This document shows, piece by piece, positions 1 through 11,477 of a stretch of 20,461 nt of DNA. Under the pieces are notes generated by a model, which was not told the origin of the DNA, searched no databases, and saw nothing but the letters and a program-made list of their open reading frames with translations. Within the stretch, counting starts at the first letter, position 1. Each line of letters starts with the position of its first letter. The translations under genes were made by a program, and so were the position numbers. The stretch comes from a virus: IMG/VR virus record IMGVR_UViG_3300023174_002652, positions 1 to 20,461 of that record; one strand, given 5' to 3'.

Positions 1-465
1 CCAGTAAGTACCATACTTTGGTCGAATGCCAAATGTCTTTTCCATGCCAACAGCATACAGTGCCAACTGCAAGTCTGATGATGGTGTGTACTTGCCAGTC
101 TTTAAGTCTACAATAACTAACTCACCATCTGGTGTCACCATCACACGGTCAATACCCATTTGGACTGGGACATCACCCATGTGTGGGGTCATTGAGATTT
201 CAATGGCAGGCTTACCGTCAGGAGTAGTCCAGATACTCCAGCCTAATTGACCAGTCCGGAACTGTACCCATGAGTCCAGCATACTGCGACCCTCTGAGAA
301 CCACCATGTTTCGTCTTCACCGTCTGGGTTAGCCTTGGTAGTACGGCCAGCCCTCCTCCACAATGCCTCTTCCTGCCCCGTAGAAGCCTTGTGAGCGGTT
401 TTTACCCTGTCCCACGTATCTTTCCACAGAACATCTAATACTTCTGGTGATGTTGGGTTGCTCAT
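1..465 (-). CDS. RecB/Cas4-like PD-(D/E)XK nuclease, C-terminal part (partial at window edge)
   Basis: The 155 visible residues run off the left edge, so the C-terminus is missing. The core of the PD-(D/E)XK exonuclease fold is visible: GIDRV around residue 104-108, then IVDLKTGK at 118-125 with D120 and K122 as the catalytic D-x-K, and QLALYA at 133-138, the Q-x-x-x-Y motif of RecB/AddB/Cas4-type nucleases. Such enzymes resect DNA ends in recombination and repair. The family's N-terminal elements are absent here and are instead encoded by the gene just upstream, whose stop overlaps this ATG (ATGA). A GAGG lies 4 nt before the ATG, so independent initiation is plausible. Either the enzyme is made as two coupled polypeptides or one gene has been broken by a one-base change. 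The family call is firm; whether this is a free-standing gene is open. Confidence 0.8.
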   Translation of the reverse strand, partial: MSNPTSPEVLDVLWKDTWDRVKTAHKASTGQEEALWRRAGRTTKANPDGEDETWWFSEGRSMLDSWVQFRTGQLGWSIWTTPDGKPAIEISMTPHMGDVPVQMGIDRVMVTPDGELVIVDLKTGKYTPSSDLQLALYAVGMEKTFGIRPKYGTYW

Positions 466-668
466 CTGCCCTCAATCTCGTACATAGCCTTGTCAAAGGC
501 TTCAGTAGCCTCATGAACTGATGAACCTCCTACTAACCACCAAGAACCATCCTCTTTTAACTGGACAATGCGAGATAGGTAGTACTTCCAACCACAATCT
601 AACCATGTGGTTAGTTGTGAGTATGAGATATGACTTGGTAAATCATATCCATTTATTTTCACAGACAT
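462..668 (-). CDS. RecB/Cas4-like nuclease, N-terminal part
   Basis: This 68-residue protein has the opening of the RecB/Cas4 nuclease fold: SYSQLTTWLDCGWKYYLSRI (residues 15-34) corresponds to the usual S-x-S-x-L...C-x-x-x-Y start, and GGSSVHEATEAF (47-58) carries the conserved histidine H52 of motif I. It then stops exactly where the next frame begins. The start is well supported: AAAGGA lies 6 nt before the ATG. Alone it lacks the acidic and lysine residues that cut DNA, so it would need the downstream polypeptide to make an active site. The overlap is an ATGA, typical of termination-reinitiation coupling. No slippery heptamer is visible at the junction, so programmed frameshifting is less likely than coupling or a recent frameshift. 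Confidence 0.8.
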   Translation of the reverse strand: MSVKINGYDLPSHISYSQLTTWLDCGWKYYLSRIVQLKEDGSWWLVGGSSVHEATEAFDKAMYEIEGR

Positions 669-1543: not shown

Positions 1544-1742
1544 AGTCAGTATTCCACTCAAGACGTTGCTCGTCTGTGATAATCATCTCATAGTTACAGT
1601 CAGGACAATAACTAATAGTAGTGCCGTCATCATCTGCCGGTACGTCTATGTCAATGACCTCGACACCACACTCAGGGCAATCCCAATCATCACTTCTATC
1701 ACTGGTCAGCCAGCCTGACCCATGCAAACTACCTTGATTCAT
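1515..1742 (-). CDS. Small zinc-ribbon protein, 75 aa
   Basis: Two C-P-x-C knuckles are visible, CPECG and, about 24 residues later, CPDC, the spacing of a zinc ribbon that binds one zinc ion. Between them is an acidic stretch (VIDIDVPADDDG). Such small zinc ribbons in phages usually contact nucleic acid or proteins; no enzyme domain is present. The ATG at 1742 is preferred because AGGAG lies 9 nt upstream of it, whereas the ATG at 1751 directly abuts that ribosome binding site. It overlaps the end of the WhiB gene by 14 nt, so the two regulators are probably co-translated. The zinc-ribbon call is firm, the role unknown. Confidence 0.75.
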   Translation of the reverse strand: MNQGSLHGSGWLTSDRSDDWDCPECGVEVIDIDVPADDDGTTISYCPDCNYEMIITDEQRLEWNTDYDNEQDYGR

Positions 1743-2259
1743 ATATACCATCTCCTGTTTCTCTTTGTTCTATTCTTCCTATGTGTACTTGATAGTCTAT
1801 CTCATTAACTCTGATGCCACGCATGATACGTTCTGACTCACGTTCAGTGGCAGTCATACCACCCCAGAACCCGTACTTCTCACGGGTTATGCCCCATTCC
1901 CTGCATTTCTGCACGATTGGACATGACAGACACATGCGCCTGAGGTATGCATGCTGTACTGGCTTACTTGACCACCAGATTGTATCGTCCTGGTCTATTG
2001 CAGCCTCAACCTCTAAGCCATCATCATAGAAAGCCTTGTGTCCAACGCCCTTGCATGATGCATTCTCGAAGTCAGGTAACTCAAGTACCAAGTCACTCAT
2101 CTTCTCACGCGCACGTCTTCCGGGCATGGACTTAACGCTACTGCCATCTCTAGATACCAATTCCCTAGTGTCTAGTCTAACTTGAGACCTTGCTAGTGCA
2201 GGTGTTTCTAGTACGTAGATTACTTCCTTGTCACTCAAATGTCCGTGTGTCATGGTCAT
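1729..2259 (-). CDS. whiB: WhiB-family iron-sulfur transcription regulator
   Basis: WhiB-like proteins bind a [4Fe-4S] cluster and, in studied cases, regulate transcription through the primary sigma factor; several actinophages encode them. All four cluster cysteines are present: C69, then C110-x2-C113-x5-C119, followed by the diagnostic turn YGFWGG (129-134) and a basic tail. At 176 residues it is longer than typical WhiB proteins (about 80-140) because of an N-terminal extension of about 60 residues with no recognised domain. An internal ATG at 2100 (MSDLVLELPDF) would give a classic short WhiB, but it has no clear ribosome binding site. The chosen start has GAGAGAAG just before it and overlaps the upstream gene by 29 nt. 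It could redirect host RNA polymerase during infection or, as described for mycobacteriophage TM4 WhiB, affect septation or superinfection. Confidence 0.9.
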   Translation of the reverse strand: MTMTHGHLSDKEVIYVLETPALARSQVRLDTRELVSRDGSSVKSMPGRRAREKMSDLVLELPDFENASCKGVGHKAFYDDGLEVEAAIDQDDTIWWSSKPVQHAYLRRMCLSCPIVQKCREWGITREKYGFWGGMTATERESERIMRGIRVNEIDYQVHIGRIEQRETGDGIYESR

Positions 2260-2534: not shown

Positions 2535-3431
2535 TTACCAGTCCATCTTCTCTAGTTGTTTCTTTTCTTCTTCCCACCAGTAGTCATTATTCCTGACAGT
2601 ACCGTCAGGTTTGTAGCATAGACAGTGAACCATATGTTCATTGCAATCTATGCATGTGTTACATGCTGTGCATGCACCTTCATCATAGTCATCTTCTTGC
2701 AGTTGTGAGTAGCAATGATAGCACACATCATAGATACTTCTAACATTACCGTTAGCATCTATCAACTCATCAGATGATAATAATATATTCTTGTCATTCT
2801 CAAACAAGTCATAGTCAGCAGATGATGCATAGCCACCAGTGTATTTACTACTGCTACCTGTGTACCAGTAACTGCGTGACTTGTATGAAGTGTTGGACCA
2901 CCATACACCGTCAACCCAGTGACCATCTTTCTCATTGAGAATGTACACATCATCTTTGAGGTCAGGTGATGTACTAAGGATAGCAATCTTGCTACCTCTA
3001 GCCCAGTCCTCTAGTTGCTTGAAGTACATAGGGTCATCAAGCACATCGACACCCATATTAGGTAGCAATTCTTCAGCAAACACACGGGTATCTGAGCGTT
3101 TGTCACCAGGTTTGAGCATGACCGGAAGCATACCATTGTGACCTAACACAATGTCCTTGCGACCATCAACCCTGAATGGGTGATTGTTCTCAACGTGTGT
3201 CGTACCGTGTGTGGTAAGACGTGCGTGGAACATACCGATAGCATCAGGATTCTTATCTAACTCAGCAAAGAACCTGTCAATGGTCACGTCTACTAGCATA
3301 CCTCGACCAGCCACAATGTGGTCGCCGTGATGTACCGCATAGCCGAAGCCATCGCTGTTGTTGTAGCAAGCAATCTCTAACTGCTCGCGCGTTGGTCGTG
3401 ACCCTGGAAGGGATACACATAACATACACAT
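2535..3431 (-). CDS. Class II glutamine amidotransferase-like protein with C-terminal zinc-binding cysteines
   Basis: The N-terminal 100 residues are those of a class II (Ntn-type) glutamine amidotransferase: C2 would become the N-terminal nucleophile after removal of Met1, followed by NSDGFGY (25-31), FHARLTTHG (68-76), ENNHPF (81-86) and GHNG (97-100). These enzymes release ammonia from glutamine and pass it to a partner. The C-terminus carries eight cysteines (237, 240, 254, 257, 260, 263, 270, 272), probably binding two zinc ions. The start is supported by GGAG 7 nt before the ATG, and it places Cys directly after Met as the mechanism requires. The gene begins 2 nt after the amidoligase gene, so the two are co-translated, and the amidoligase is the obvious ammonia or amine acceptor partner. 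A copy of the 16-bp palindrome lies in the 3' end of this gene. Confidence 0.88.
   Translation of the reverse strand: MCMLCVSLPGSRPTREQLEIACYNNSDGFGYAVHHGDHIVAGRGMLVDVTIDRFFAELDKNPDAIGMFHARLTTHGTTHVENNHPFRVDGRKDIVLGHNGMLPVMLKPGDKRSDTRVFAEELLPNMGVDVLDDPMYFKQLEDWARGSKIAILSTSPDLKDDVYILNEKDGHWVDGVWWSNTSYKSRSYWYTGSSSKYTGGYASSADYDLFENDKNILLSSDELIDANGNVRSIYDVCYHCYSQLQEDDYDEGACTACNTCIDCNEHMVHCLCYKPDGTVRNNDYWWEEEKKQLEKMDW
2592..2609. promoter_or_regulatory. 16-bp palindrome, copy 1
   Basis: CTGACAGTACCGTCAG at 2593-2608, with one further complementary pair outside it (C/G). It lies inside the 3' end of the amidotransferase gene, about 60 nt upstream of the start at 2533. Probable DNA-binding site; protein unknown. 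Confidence 0.55.
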
Positions 3432-3433
3432 AA

Positions 3434-4633
3434 TTACTCTCCATCATTCTGAGAAGTATAGGACTTCTCACTAAAGCCGAACTCGACCGACTTGTTTATG
3501 TAACTTAATAGGTTTGGATACAAAGCCCTGTTGCCTCGTAACCATTGGATAAATGCAGGTGCTGTTAGGTATTCCTCAGCACCGACACCTGACCTAGCAC
3601 CGCGTGAATACTCAACGGCACTATGCACATACTCAAGTGCAGCGAGTATGCGTTCTTTCTTTAGTGAACCCCTGAACATGCGCACCTCAAGGGTAGATGT
3701 TGGTAGTACATTGACGGCAGAATACCGTTGCGCATAATTGTTTTGACCCTTTAGATGCTTGGGTATTTCCAAGCGATTACTCCTGTCAAAGGATGCGTAT
3801 GAGTTACCTTGTCTACCTGCAATCAGGTATGACAAAGCCTTGTTGCGCATGAGTAGCAGGGTGAATGAGTACTGATGCAACCTACCATTGAAGCCACGTC
3901 TATCAACGTGAACATGTAAGCCACAAGTACTCCTGTCCCATGAGCGATAGCCCTTATCCAGTAGACCTTGAGTCCACTCCCAGTTCATGCTGTGTGCATA
4001 AGCAAGGGTCATTGGGTGTGTGACTATCTCAAAGCCGTCATTAAGTGAGCCGTCCTCCTTGAAGTAAGCAAGGTCTCCTAAGTATGACTCCACTAATTCC
4101 GGACCATCATAGTCATCACCATTAGACTCAACCTCTAACTCAAAGCCCATGAATACATGGCGGTCAGCATCAGGGTCATTATCTACCCAATGAAACTGAG
4201 GGTAAGGCTTGTAACCATAGTCGTGTACATCATGGCTACCACCACAGCACCTGCCCTGTCTAGGGTCATAACTATAATCGCAACGAGTGCAATGCTCAGA
4301 GTAATCCTCGTAACAACTGTGACACCAGTCATCACTGCTAATGTTGTACATGTCATTCTCGTGTTCAGTCCTACCACATCTGTCACATGTAGACATTCTG
4401 TTGCCACATGGGTGACAGTAGCCAGCATGATTGTCATGCACCTCGGTATCTGGGAATGTGCAATCACACCAGTTACACACAAAGATGTGAGCCTCGCAGT
4501 ACGCATCCTCGCTACTATCAAGTGCGTATGTGTCATTGTCCATGTCTATGGTATTAGTACATGTACCATAACAACACACCACCTGTCGTTCATCTACCTC
4601 AACATCGAGGTATGTTGTATCTATCTCACTCAT
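3434..4633 (-). CDS. Amidoligase_2-family COOH-NH2 ligase with N-terminal cysteine-rich zinc domains
   Basis: The C-terminal part matches the putative amidoligase family (Amidoligase_2, glutamine-synthetase/gamma-glutamylcysteine-synthetase fold), which is predicted to join a carboxylate to an amine using ATP. Motifs are GFELEVE (163-169), EDGS (193-196), FEIVTHP (201-207), CGLHVHVD (237-244), RYSAVNV (303-309) and TLEVRMFRGSL (314-324). Residues 20-130 contain a run of C-x2-C pairs (about 20 Cys plus His), resembling several tandem LIM or treble-clef fingers, perhaps to hold a substrate protein. I chose the ATG at 4633 (399 aa): AGGAGG lies 7 nt upstream, and a longer reading from 4687 would translate through the 16-bp palindrome. 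Immediately downstream is a class II amidotransferase, a neighbour previously noted for this family in comparative genomics. The substrate is unknown. Confidence 0.87.
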   Translation of the reverse strand: MSEIDTTYLDVEVDERQVVCCYGTCTNTIDMDNDTYALDSSEDAYCEAHIFVCNWCDCTFPDTEVHDNHAGYCHPCGNRMSTCDRCGRTEHENDMYNISSDDWCHSCYEDYSEHCTRCDYSYDPRQGRCCGGSHDVHDYGYKPYPQFHWVDNDPDADRHVFMGFELEVESNGDDYDGPELVESYLGDLAYFKEDGSLNDGFEIVTHPMTLAYAHSMNWEWTQGLLDKGYRSWDRSTCGLHVHVDRRGFNGRLHQYSFTLLLMRNKALSYLIAGRQGNSYASFDRSNRLEIPKHLKGQNNYAQRYSAVNVLPTSTLEVRMFRGSLKKERILAALEYVHSAVEYSRGARSGVGAEEYLTAPAFIQWLRGNRALYPNLLSYINKSVEFGFSEKSYTSQNDGE

Positions 4634-4818
4634 CAGAGTGCCTCCTGTTCTGACGGTACCGTCAGGTTGTTGGTTGGTTCTAGCCATTCGATACTGTCCA
4701 TACTGGCAAGCCTGTCTTTCAATATCTTGTGTGCTTCACCACTAGCATAACCGAGCCTGATTAGATTATCAAGTTCAGTCTGATACCAATAAAGCGCAGT
4801 CATGTGTGCCTTAGCCAT
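4633..4818 (-). CDS. Hypothetical small protein, 61 aa
   Basis: This short, mostly helical protein begins MAKAHMTALYWYQTELDNL; no known domain is visible. GAGGAG lies 10 nt before the ATG, which sits inside the end of the preceding gene; its TGA overlaps the ATG of the amidoligase gene (TGATG). The pattern W-Y-x3-L followed by G-Y and a helix resembles that of the upstream 4811-4972 product, so the two may be diverged duplicates. Its last codons contain the 16-bp palindrome, so a regulatory site and coding sequence overlap here. It could be an accessory factor for the amidoligase, but position is the only evidence. Confidence 0.6.
   Translation of the reverse strand: MAKAHMTALYWYQTELDNLIRLGYASGEAHKILKDRLASMDSIEWLEPTNNLTVPSEQEAL
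4650..4665. promoter_or_regulatory. 16-bp palindrome, copy 2
   Basis: CTGACGGTACCGTCAG, a perfect palindrome, 16 nt upstream of the amidoligase start and just before its ribosome binding site. It also encodes the last residues of the 61-residue upstream protein. Confidence 0.6.
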
Positions 4819-5351: not shown

Positions 5352-5576
5352 TTAGTTCCTAACGGTTCTATTATCAAGTCCTGACGGTACTGTCATGATT
5401 GCTAACGCCCGTTCGATAGCATCACGGGTGTACGTCACCCGTATTGGGGTTGCAGTTGTCTTGCGTTGTGGGTGTCGAGGCTTGCCTCGTACCTGTACAT
5501 AGGAGGCACTGCGTATCACTCTATGAGTGGGTACGTTATGCCCACGAATACCCCTGATTCCATTGCCTTTAGCCAT
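5352..5576 (-). CDS. Hypothetical basic protein, 74 aa
   Basis: This strongly basic protein starts MAKGNGIRGIRGHNVPTHRV and continues with an Arg/Lys-rich central stretch, suggesting nucleic acid binding, then a short helix TRDAIERALAIM. No known domain is visible. GGAG 7 nt before the ATG at 5576 decides the start; a longer reading from 5684 would overlap the whole of the next upstream gene. The C-terminal codons (TVPSG) contain the palindrome at 5381-5395. The start overlaps the end of the 59-residue gene by 8 nt. Confidence 0.6.
   Translation of the reverse strand: MAKGNGIRGIRGHNVPTHRVIRSASYVQVRGKPRHPQRKTTATPIRVTYTRDAIERALAIMTVPSGLDNRTVRN
5381..5395. promoter_or_regulatory. 16-bp palindrome, copy 3 (last base altered)
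   Basis: CTGACGGTACTGTCA followed by T instead of G. It lies 30 nt upstream of the start at 5350 and inside the 3' end of the 74-residue gene. Confidence 0.5.
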
Positions 5577-5769: not shown

Positions 5770-5787
5770 CCTGACGGTACTGTCAGG
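5770..5787. promoter_or_regulatory. 16-bp palindrome, copy 4
   Basis: CTGACGGTACTGTCAG at 5771-5786 with an extra flanking C/G pair. It lies 22 nt upstream of the 59-residue gene start, immediately before its ribosome binding site. Confidence 0.6.
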
Positions 5788-5926: not shown

Positions 5927-5942
5927 CTGACGGTACTGTCAG
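5927..5942. promoter_or_regulatory. 16-bp palindrome, copy 5
   Basis: CTGACGGTACTGTCAG, lying between the terminator of the helix-turn-helix gene and the tandem repeat at 5851-5910. This is where a promoter for the leftward operon would be expected. Confidence 0.6.
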
Positions 5943-6005: not shown

Positions 6006-6596
6006 CTAGATTGTTGCCAGTTCCTTCTCCATAACCTTTTCGGTTAGGTATTCGGCGACAGTCATTAACTCAACCTTGCCCGACATAATCATGTCGGCTA
6101 ATTGGTCGGCTAATGATTCCCAACCCTGAACCTTCATAGGCTTTTCGGTTGGTTCGGATTCCTCGGTTGGTTCGGTTGCCTTAGCCTTAGCCTTGCCCGC
6201 TTTATGGGTTGCCTTGTAAGCCTTTAGCAATTCGCGCCAATCCGTTACTGACTTAACCTTTTCGACCTCGGTTGTTTTCATGTTGTAGTTACCAATGGCC
6301 GAATTAACCTCAACTGCCGTTACCTTGCCATCAGTTACCAAAGCAACGTGACCACTAGCCAACCAGCGACCTATTGTCTTTTCACTTACGCCACTAGCCC
6401 GACTTAGTTCCGCTTTCGACCCATGCTTACGGTTCACACTCATGAACCAGGCGTAGGATTCGGCGCAAGCCACCTCAACCGCGCTAACGGTATCGGTTGC
6501 GACCTTTTCAAGTCGGTTGGTTAGTTCGGTTAGTTCGTTCGTTAGTGAGTTCGCAATCTTGCATGACTCAACCGCGTTTACGAATAGATTTTGCAT
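6006..6596 (-). CDS. Helix-turn-helix DNA-binding protein, 196 aa
   Basis: Residues 59-82 (GSKAELSRASGVSEKTIGRWLASG) form a classic helix-turn-helix with the recognition helix SEKTIGRWL. Ahead of it is a helical region (1-55) that may dimerise; after it come a basic linker with KAGKAKAKA (132-140), an acidic TEPTEESEPTEK stretch and a C-terminal helical domain (157-196). AGGAG 5 nt before the ATG fixes the start. It is a monocistronic unit, with its own promoter candidate at 6725-6753 and a strong terminator right behind it. This arrangement, beside the divergent control region, suits a phage repressor or early regulator, or a replication initiator or partition protein binding repeated DNA sites. 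It is one candidate to bind the 16-bp palindromes. No enzyme domain is visible. Confidence 0.78.
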   Translation of the reverse strand: MQNLFVNAVESCKIANSLTNELTELTNRLEKVATDTVSAVEVACAESYAWFMSVNRKHGSKAELSRASGVSEKTIGRWLASGHVALVTDGKVTAVEVNSAIGNYNMKTTEVEKVKSVTDWRELLKAYKATHKAGKAKAKATEPTEESEPTEKPMKVQGWESLADQLADMIMSGKVELMTVAEYLTEKVMEKELATI

Positions 6597-6786: not shown

Positions 6787-6802
6787 CTGACAGTACTGTC
6801 AG
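6787..6802. promoter_or_regulatory. 16-bp palindrome, copy 6
   Basis: CTGACAGTACTGTCAG, a perfect palindrome in the divergent region, about 35 bp upstream of the putative -35 box of the helix-turn-helix gene. Confidence 0.6.
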
Positions 6803-10955: not shown

Positions 10956-11477
10956 ATGACAACAATTTTAGCAGTGCAATACCAAAATGGTTTTGTATTT
11001 GCAGCAGATAGTCAAATCACTGAAAACGAACGCCCCTACATGCACAGTGATGTTAGAAAAATCACCGAAGATGGTGACTATGTAATTGCTGGGGCAGGAA
11101 ATGCAAGGTTCTGTGATGTTGTCCAGTATGGATGGAAGTTACCTAGATACGATGGAACTGACGGATACCGCTTTATGGTTAGCAAGGTTATCCCGGAGTT
11201 AAAGAAAGCACATGACTCTACTGGAACAACTTTAGAAAAAGATGACGGATTTTCATTCCTAATTGGTTTAGATAATAAGATTTACTATGTTGCTGAAGAT
11301 TACTCGGTACTACGTACCGATACAGGAATCTATGCAATGGGTACTGGTGGAGAACTTGCATTAGGTGCATACTACTCTGGTGCTACAATAAGACAGGCGA
11401 TGCGCACTGCTATTAAGTTTGATGTTAATAGTGGTGGCAAAATACAGATTGTGAAACGAGGAAAGCAAAATGGCTAA
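10956..11477 (+). CDS. Proteasome/HslV-like Ntn hydrolase (N-terminal threonine)
   Basis: The 173 residues read like a proteasome beta/HslV subunit without propeptide. Met1 is followed by TTILAVQ, so T2 would be exposed as the catalytic Thr1 after Met removal. FAADSQIT puts an aspartate (D18) at the position of Asp17, RKI (K35) matches the Lys33 region with one extra residue, and MGTGGELALGA (131-141) corresponds to the GSGG loop with the Ser129 region of the family. The C-terminus (VNSGGKIQIVKRG) is the usual last strand. The gene follows the portal by 2 nt and overlaps the next gene, so it is part of the virion module. A head-maturation protease is the natural guess from position, but known phage maturation proteases are HK97/assemblin-type or ClpP-like. 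Alternatively it may target host proteins. Confidence 0.85.
   Translation: MTTILAVQYQNGFVFAADSQITENERPYMHSDVRKITEDGDYVIAGAGNARFCDVVQYGWKLPRYDGTDGYRFMVSKVIPELKKAHDSTGTTLEKDDGFSFLIGLDNKIYYVAEDYSVLRTDTGIYAMGTGGELALGAYYSGATIRQAMRTAIKFDVNSGGKIQIVKRGKQNG

Follow-up and report, generated by a model that had tools for sequence, protein, structure and literature searches.

A conserved amidoligase and class II amidotransferase gene pair with cysteine-rich modules in phages, actinobacterial genomes and plasmids

What reaction is served by a phage amidoligase encoded directly beside a glutamine amidotransferase, and do the two proteins act as one enzyme? The window (the whole stretch of DNA analysed here, 20,461 bases) is a viral record that is itself a fragment. 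It comes probably from an actinobacteriophage, an actinobacterial host being suggested by a WhiB-like gene close by and by relatives in Mycobacterium. We found no published account that names the substrate of a phage amidoligase. The features of the pair are the following.

3434-4633, minus strand: Amidoligase_2-type ligase gene, 399 aa (PF12224 score over the cut-off; 45 diverse homologues aligned; AlphaFold mean pLDDT 84, glutamine-synthetase (GS)-fold core)
4229-4588, minus strand: N-terminal cysteine-rich module of the ligase, aa 16-135, predicted zinc fingers (near-invariant in viral and actinobacterial rows)
3470-4177, minus strand: predicted GS-fold catalytic domain of the ligase, aa 153-388, with GFELEVE, CGLHVHVD and TLEVRMFRGSL (residue conservation; YbdK Z 12.5)
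2535-3431, minus strand: class II glutamine amidotransferase-fold gene (GAT), 298 aa (model mean pLDDT 82, core >90; GlmS Z 14.2, EgtC Z 13.4)
2892-3431, minus strand: GAT-II/Ntn domain, aa 1-180, with Cys2, R71, N99-G100 and D114 (identical in 113/113 viral and 101-102/102 bacterial rows)
2616-2723, minus strand: C-terminal 8-cysteine module of the GAT, aa 237-272, predicted two zinc sites (row conservation)

The initial annotation had described two adjacent, co-translated genes, which agrees with their layout on the minus strand. The ligase stop codon (3436-3434) is followed 2 nt further on by the GAT ATG at 3431, and GGAGAG lies 5 nt 5' of that ATG; this spacing and this site make translational coupling likely. 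The ligase starts at the ATG at 4633, which has AGGAGG 7 nt 5' of it, unlike the alternative upstream ATG at 4687. The PHROG families best matched by the two proteins, 25883 and 16683/22302, have no assigned function.

Folds, active sites and cysteine-rich modules

In a Pfam profile search the ligase matched PF12224 with 22.9 bits (cut-off 22), and eight of eight diverse relatives matched as well (best 3e-9), bearing out the Amidoligase_2 identity first assigned from the sequence. The three motifs cited for it were all found, and the catalytic residues are intact in the structural model and in the alignments: E165, E167, D194, E202, H240, H242, R274 and R318 are identical in 113/113 viral rows and 107-108 of 109 bacterial rows. 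Searching PDB sequences with the ligase profile gave no meaningful match. In the AlphaFold2 model, built from the 45 homologues and with well modelled cores, the predicted ligase core (aa 153-388) superimposes on YbdK with Z 12.5 (rmsd 4.0 over 220 residues), on glutamine synthetase with Z 11.8 (rmsd 3.3 over 183 residues) and on glutamate-cysteine ligase with Z 11.8. PafA and Dop are also in the Foldseek list, PafA (E 2.7e-4) behind YbdK. The products of YbdK and glutamate-cysteine ligase are gamma-glutamyl amides. As modelled, the ligase has a glutamine-synthetase-like fold with GS-type active-site residues and is a predicted ATP-dependent carboxylate-amine ligase.

The window GAT alone scores under the Pfam cut-offs (GATase_6, 22.7 against 27; GATase_4, 18.9 against 23), so that its assignment to the class II superfamily is made by fold and motif. 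All eight diverse GAT relatives match GATase_4, the GAT profile retrieves GlmS and PurF in PDB (5.6e-7) and not EgtC, and the AlphaFold2 model (46 diverse homologues) has a GAT-II fold, all in keeping with the class II identity proposed initially. The predicted core (aa 2-186) aligns with the GlmS glutaminase at Z 14.0-14.2 (rmsd 3.6-3.8 over 172-173 residues), with EgtC tied at Z 13.4; the linker that follows (about aa 187-232) is of low model confidence. The protein carries Cys2, Arg, HNG and SDT motifs, and C2, R71, H98, N99, G100 and D114 are essentially invariant in the 113 viral pairs, three annotated phages and ~102 bacterial copies. The 100% conservation of Cys2 is partly by construction, since GAT starts were chosen by the presence of Met-Cys; zero viral loci were dropped for want of Cys2. 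Of the motifs in the initial annotation, Cys2 and HNG are intact as described, whereas "NSDG" is in fact NNSDGFGY and aligns with NNPDG in relatives. We regard the GAT, on its model, as having a class II glutamine amidotransferase/Ntn fold and as a predicted glutaminase.

Both proteins also carry a cysteine cluster of their own, N-terminal in the ligase and C-terminal in the GAT, as had been noticed from the sequence; both are near-invariant in relatives. The ligase module has eleven cysteines (C53, C56, C73, C76, C83, C86, C104, C107, C115, C118 and C130). The eight of the GAT (C237, C240, C254, C257, C260, C263, C270 and C272) are kept in 110-113 of the 113 viral rows and in 99-100 of the 102 bacterial ones. 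Annotated distant phages apart, the modules are nearly as conserved as the active sites in phage and actinobacterial rows. They lie outside the regions aligned by Foldseek and VIA-align, which covered the catalytic cores only, and their cysteines point to zinc binding in both. Both are strongly acidic (ligase aa 1-150, pI 4.36 and net charge -22; GAT aa 225-298, pI about 4.4 and net charge -10), which argues against direct nucleic-acid binding and favours protein contacts instead. The GAT module is absent from the most distant pairs, those of MEP402 and ctgrD200, and thus seems dispensable for the core reaction.

Occurrence in phages, bacterial chromosomes and plasmids

In a first set of viral contigs, the ligase is followed by the GAT on the same strand in 158/158 testable loci, those that no contig end truncates; one locus of the survey (L001) is the pair of the window itself in minus-strand reading. 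Where a viral locus in this set has a single gene, a contig end truncates it. Remote GAT alignments were used in two more scans, which yielded 158 loci; the two genes are adjacent in 153 of them, a contig end truncates the other 5, and there are 0 exceptions. The contig sets overlap between scans, so that 158/158 and 153/153 are not independent, and the loci were counted among the best 80 matches per scan, with very remote relatives under-sampled. The gap between the genes is typically about 0-35 nt. The adjacency is thus conserved, and the outcomes that the initial annotation had named as speaking against its reading (no profile match, no catalytic residues, no conserved adjacency) were looked for and did not occur. 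Across hundreds of phage contigs, most of them environmental, the two genes are strictly kept as a unit, and from this strict co-occurrence, order and spacing we infer that the two proteins form one enzyme. Pair-specific coevolution is not indicated, as the distance correlation between ligase and GAT (0.62) does not exceed the values that the two proteins give with the terminase control (0.68 and 0.74).

The arrangement varies among the very remote relatives. In Rhizobium and Stenotrophomonas phages the ligase and the GAT belong to larger clusters that also contain ATP-grasp or ligase-like genes, in an Acinetobacter phage they form a simple pair, and a Clostridioides phage has a ligase with no recognised GAT within 4 kb. 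One apparent one-frame fusion of ligase and GAT (L162:2443-4026) was rejected as a natural fusion, since the join lost the GAT N-terminus with Cys2 and the end of the ligase; it is probably a deletion, a defective copy or an assembly error.

The initial annotation had mentioned a link between this ligase family and amidotransferases. It is indeed published, phages included, and the pairing itself is therefore not new: the pair has been described in mycobacteriophage Marvin and in OM43 phages, and the roles proposed there are cell-wall change, secondary metabolites and phage-host interaction (PMC10580990, which refers to Iyer et al. 2009 and to Mageeney et al. 2012). Marvin gp105/gp106 resemble the window pair in having a homologous ligase (~32% identity over 66%) and GAT (~31% over 97%), adjacent and in the same order, with cysteine clusters in both proteins. 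They differ in that both are annotated merely as glutamine amidotransferase domain proteins, the ligase is extended at its C-terminus and has fewer cysteines at its N-terminus, and the genes are spaced by ~80 nt rather than 2 nt. Marvin-type relatives comprise 19 Mycobacterium phage records. As Marvin infects a laboratory host, Mycobacterium smegmatis, its homologous pair makes the substrate question directly testable. The OM43 phages MEP401 and MEP402 likewise have adjacent PF12224 and GAT-II genes in the same order (PMC10580990), but in this type the GAT has no C-terminal cysteine module and the N-terminus of the ligase is long, different and cysteine-poor. A midpoint-rooted GAT tree places MEP402 and ctgrD200 apart from a group that holds the window, Marvin and the bacterial copies.

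More distant homologues of both proteins lie side by side in LUZ24 (gp18/gp19; profile E 4.9e-5 and 1.8e-6). According to the published accounts, LUZ24/phiEco32-type clusters also hold a COOH-NH2 ligase, a RimK-like ATP-grasp and a gamma-glutamyl-removing enzyme, GGCT (PMC3890496; Iyer et al. 2009 via PMC10580990). Among 32 records with a window-type pair, none had COOH-NH2_lig (PF14395), which was found in the positive controls LUZ24 and phiEco32, and none had GGCT (PF06094), for which the control was positive in 9 of 14 genomes. Of these 32 records, 29 are viral contigs of 35-42 kb; many of the records are contigs whose completeness is unproven, and the window record is itself a fragment. 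Inspection of the conserved neighbours revealed no recognised ATP-grasp partner. Given the absence of PF14395 and PF06094, the window pair appears as a Marvin-type, stripped-down form of the phage amidoligase clusters. New here are its breadth, the strict two-gene unit, the conserved modules of predicted zinc type on both enzymes, the tandem form on mobile elements and the absence of the GGCT and the COOH-NH2 ligase that accompany the pair in LUZ24-type clusters.

When 84,980 species genomes were scanned, 61 loci emerged, nearly all in Actinobacteria and most in Nocardia, with the ligase before the GAT in nearly all of them. Most Nocardia loci have two or three ligase-GAT pairs in tandem (e.g., L171:4740-8750), and the tandem copies keep both active sites. 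In the GAT tree, the first and second Nocardia copies form two separate clades (support 100/98 and 100/100), which places the duplication before the divergence of these Nocardia species, with both pairs retained. At E 1e-25 the gene is present in 35 of 98 Nocardia genomes and, in a phylum-wide sample, in 1 of 296 genomes, that one being the Nocardia centre itself; so patchy a distribution is as expected for mobile DNA. Neighbours of the bacterial pairs include a TrwC relaxase (L208), a weak ParB match, SSB, Prim-Pol, DUF4192, DUF2637 and a DprA-like protein, and judging from such genes, the chromosomal loci are probably conjugative or integrative elements. A GAT homologue is also found on four mycobacterial plasmids; in the two that were inspected it adjoins a ligase, which again comes first. 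In one plasmid locus (L232:2002-8756) the pair lies behind a 1,580-aa methyltransferase-SNF2-like helicase, and such a protein is also encoded upstream of the L226 pair. Proteins of the methyltransferase-helicase type can counter restriction.

The presence of the pair on plasmids and conjugative-type elements, in tandem and as diverged copies, suggests a role common to phages and other mobile DNA and makes phage-only roles such as lysis or virion assembly less likely.

Proposed reaction and alternatives

We consider it probable that the pair is a two-subunit glutamine-dependent amide synthetase, both in its chemistry and in its subunit arrangement. The GAT subunit, with Cys2 as nucleophile, would convert glutamine to glutamate and ammonia; the ammonia would pass to the GS-fold ligase, which would use ATP to activate a carboxylate as acyl-phosphate and then form the amide. 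Complex formation and ammonia transfer are suggested by the gene arrangement and the predicted folds. The zinc-type modules would most likely hold the subunits together, bring a macromolecular (probably protein) substrate, or both. Their acidity leads us to favour a protein substrate with modest confidence, and our guess is that the enzyme would act in early host take-over or counter-defence, of use to phages and conjugative elements alike.

A glutaminase subunit beside an ATP-dependent ligase subunit is also the arrangement of MurT-GatD, a precedent for two-subunit glutamine-dependent amidation of the cell wall (PMC3267633). The window pair differs from it in combining a class II/Ntn GAT with a GS-fold ligase. 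GatD belongs to the class I (triad) GATs, and MurT has a Mur-ligase fold. With this precedent, the same chemistry could have another target, the amidation of a peptidoglycan precursor or a small molecule leading to superinfection exclusion or to a metabolite, and we hold this to be possible, though clearly less probable than the amide synthetase chemistry itself. Such targets have been suggested in print, and a role in superinfection exclusion has been put forward for phiEco32 (Iyer et al. 2009, cited in PMC10580990). The hosts of most relatives are probably Gram-positive Actinobacteria, as a wall target would lead one to expect, but the pair is also present in phages of Gram-negative OM43 bacteria and on plasmids, no cell-wall synthesis gene is among the conserved neighbours, and wall remodelling is slow relative to a lytic cycle. 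Cysteine-rich adaptors, for their part, would be unusual for an enzyme acting on small molecules.

The main mechanistic rival to an amide synthetase is a pair of opposing enzymes, in which the ligase makes a gamma-glutamyl (or similar) amide and the GAT-fold protein is a hydrolase that removes the gamma-glutamyl group, as EgtC does in ergothioneine synthesis. In EgtA and EgtC, one pathway indeed has both a gamma-glutamyl ligase and a hydrolase of GAT-II fold, and EgtC, which hydrolyses a gamma-glutamyl amide and does not supply ammonia, ranks among the top structural matches of the GAT model (Z 13.4 against 14.2 for GlmS). The enzymes making gamma-glutamyl amides among the ligase matches (YbdK, the best, and glutamate-cysteine ligase), the lack of a synthetase domain in the GAT itself and the GGCT of LUZ24-type clusters all point the same way. 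We nevertheless think this rather unlikely, because strict 1:1 co-translation fits a subunit better than an opposing enzyme and the GAT sequence profile finds GlmS and PurF, not EgtC; no other ergothioneine genes were seen near the window pair. It is more improbable still that proteins are tagged without ammonia, the ligase attaching a peptide or an amino acid to them like the GS-fold Pup ligase PafA and the GAT merely feeding or editing it: PafA and Dop are among the GS-fold matches, the hosts are probably actinobacterial and the window has an HslV/proteasome-like gene, but YbdK and GS are better matches than PafA, no small protein resembling Pup was recognised among the conserved neighbours, and the HslV-like gene sits in the structural-gene arm by the portal gene.

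Returning to the two-subunit amide synthetase, its widest form would be a mobilome-wide system of zinc-module-guided, glutamine-dependent protein amidation. Here a two-subunit writer common to actinobacteriophages, conjugative elements and plasmids would amidate one particular protein of the host and so overcome its defence or take over the cell; the two anciently diverged tandem writers of Nocardia elements would serve two targets. We put this forward as a speculation that is unlikely to hold in full.

Palindromes and neighbouring genes

A 16-nt palindrome (CTGACRGTACYGTCAG, or a close variant of it) occurs six times in the leftward gene arm of the window, with 0 expected by chance.

4650-4665, strand not assigned: palindrome CTGACGGTACCGTCAG, directly upstream of the ligase Shine-Dalgarno; one of the six operator-like window copies
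2593-2608, 4650-4665, 5381-5396, 5771-5786, 5927-5942 and 6787-6802: palindrome copies, leftward arm

A perfect 16-nt palindrome is repeated 4-12 times in 21 of 112 related loci and in none of the block-shuffled controls. The repeated palindromes of these 21 loci are 15 distinct words, roughly ten of them clearly different sequences, and they look like phage-specific operators comparable to those of different immunity types. In 21/21 loci one copy is found between -51 and +22 nt relative to the called ligase start, mostly at -31 to -40, and this places the ligase first in a regulated unit. An HTH-like protein (6006-6596, minus strand) with weak matches to repressor families is a candidate reader of the palindromes.

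A gene naming the substrate was sought among the conserved neighbours of the viral and bacterial pairs and none was seen, and PADLOC defence models gave zero matches for the ligase or the GAT at E 0.001. The WhiB-like protein of the window (1729-2259, minus strand) has counterparts in 82 of the 112 related loci, where the GAT usually precedes it by two or three genes; other frequent neighbours in these loci are terminase and, by eye, sigma-factor-like and metallophosphoesterase-like genes. The HslV/proteasome-beta-like gene (10956-11477, plus strand; Pfam Proteasome 25.8 bits, phrog_1040) follows just after the probable portal gene in the structural-gene arm, and its product is perhaps a head-maturation protease. 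At the left end of the window, a PD-(D/E)XK nuclease (1-668, minus strand) is encoded as two ORFs overlapping by 4 nt, of which 462-668 matches profile positions 1-50 and 1-465 matches positions 68-172. A programmed frameshift and a two-chain nuclease are candidate readings of this split; the first piece (68 aa) is a separate ORF also in 18 related loci.
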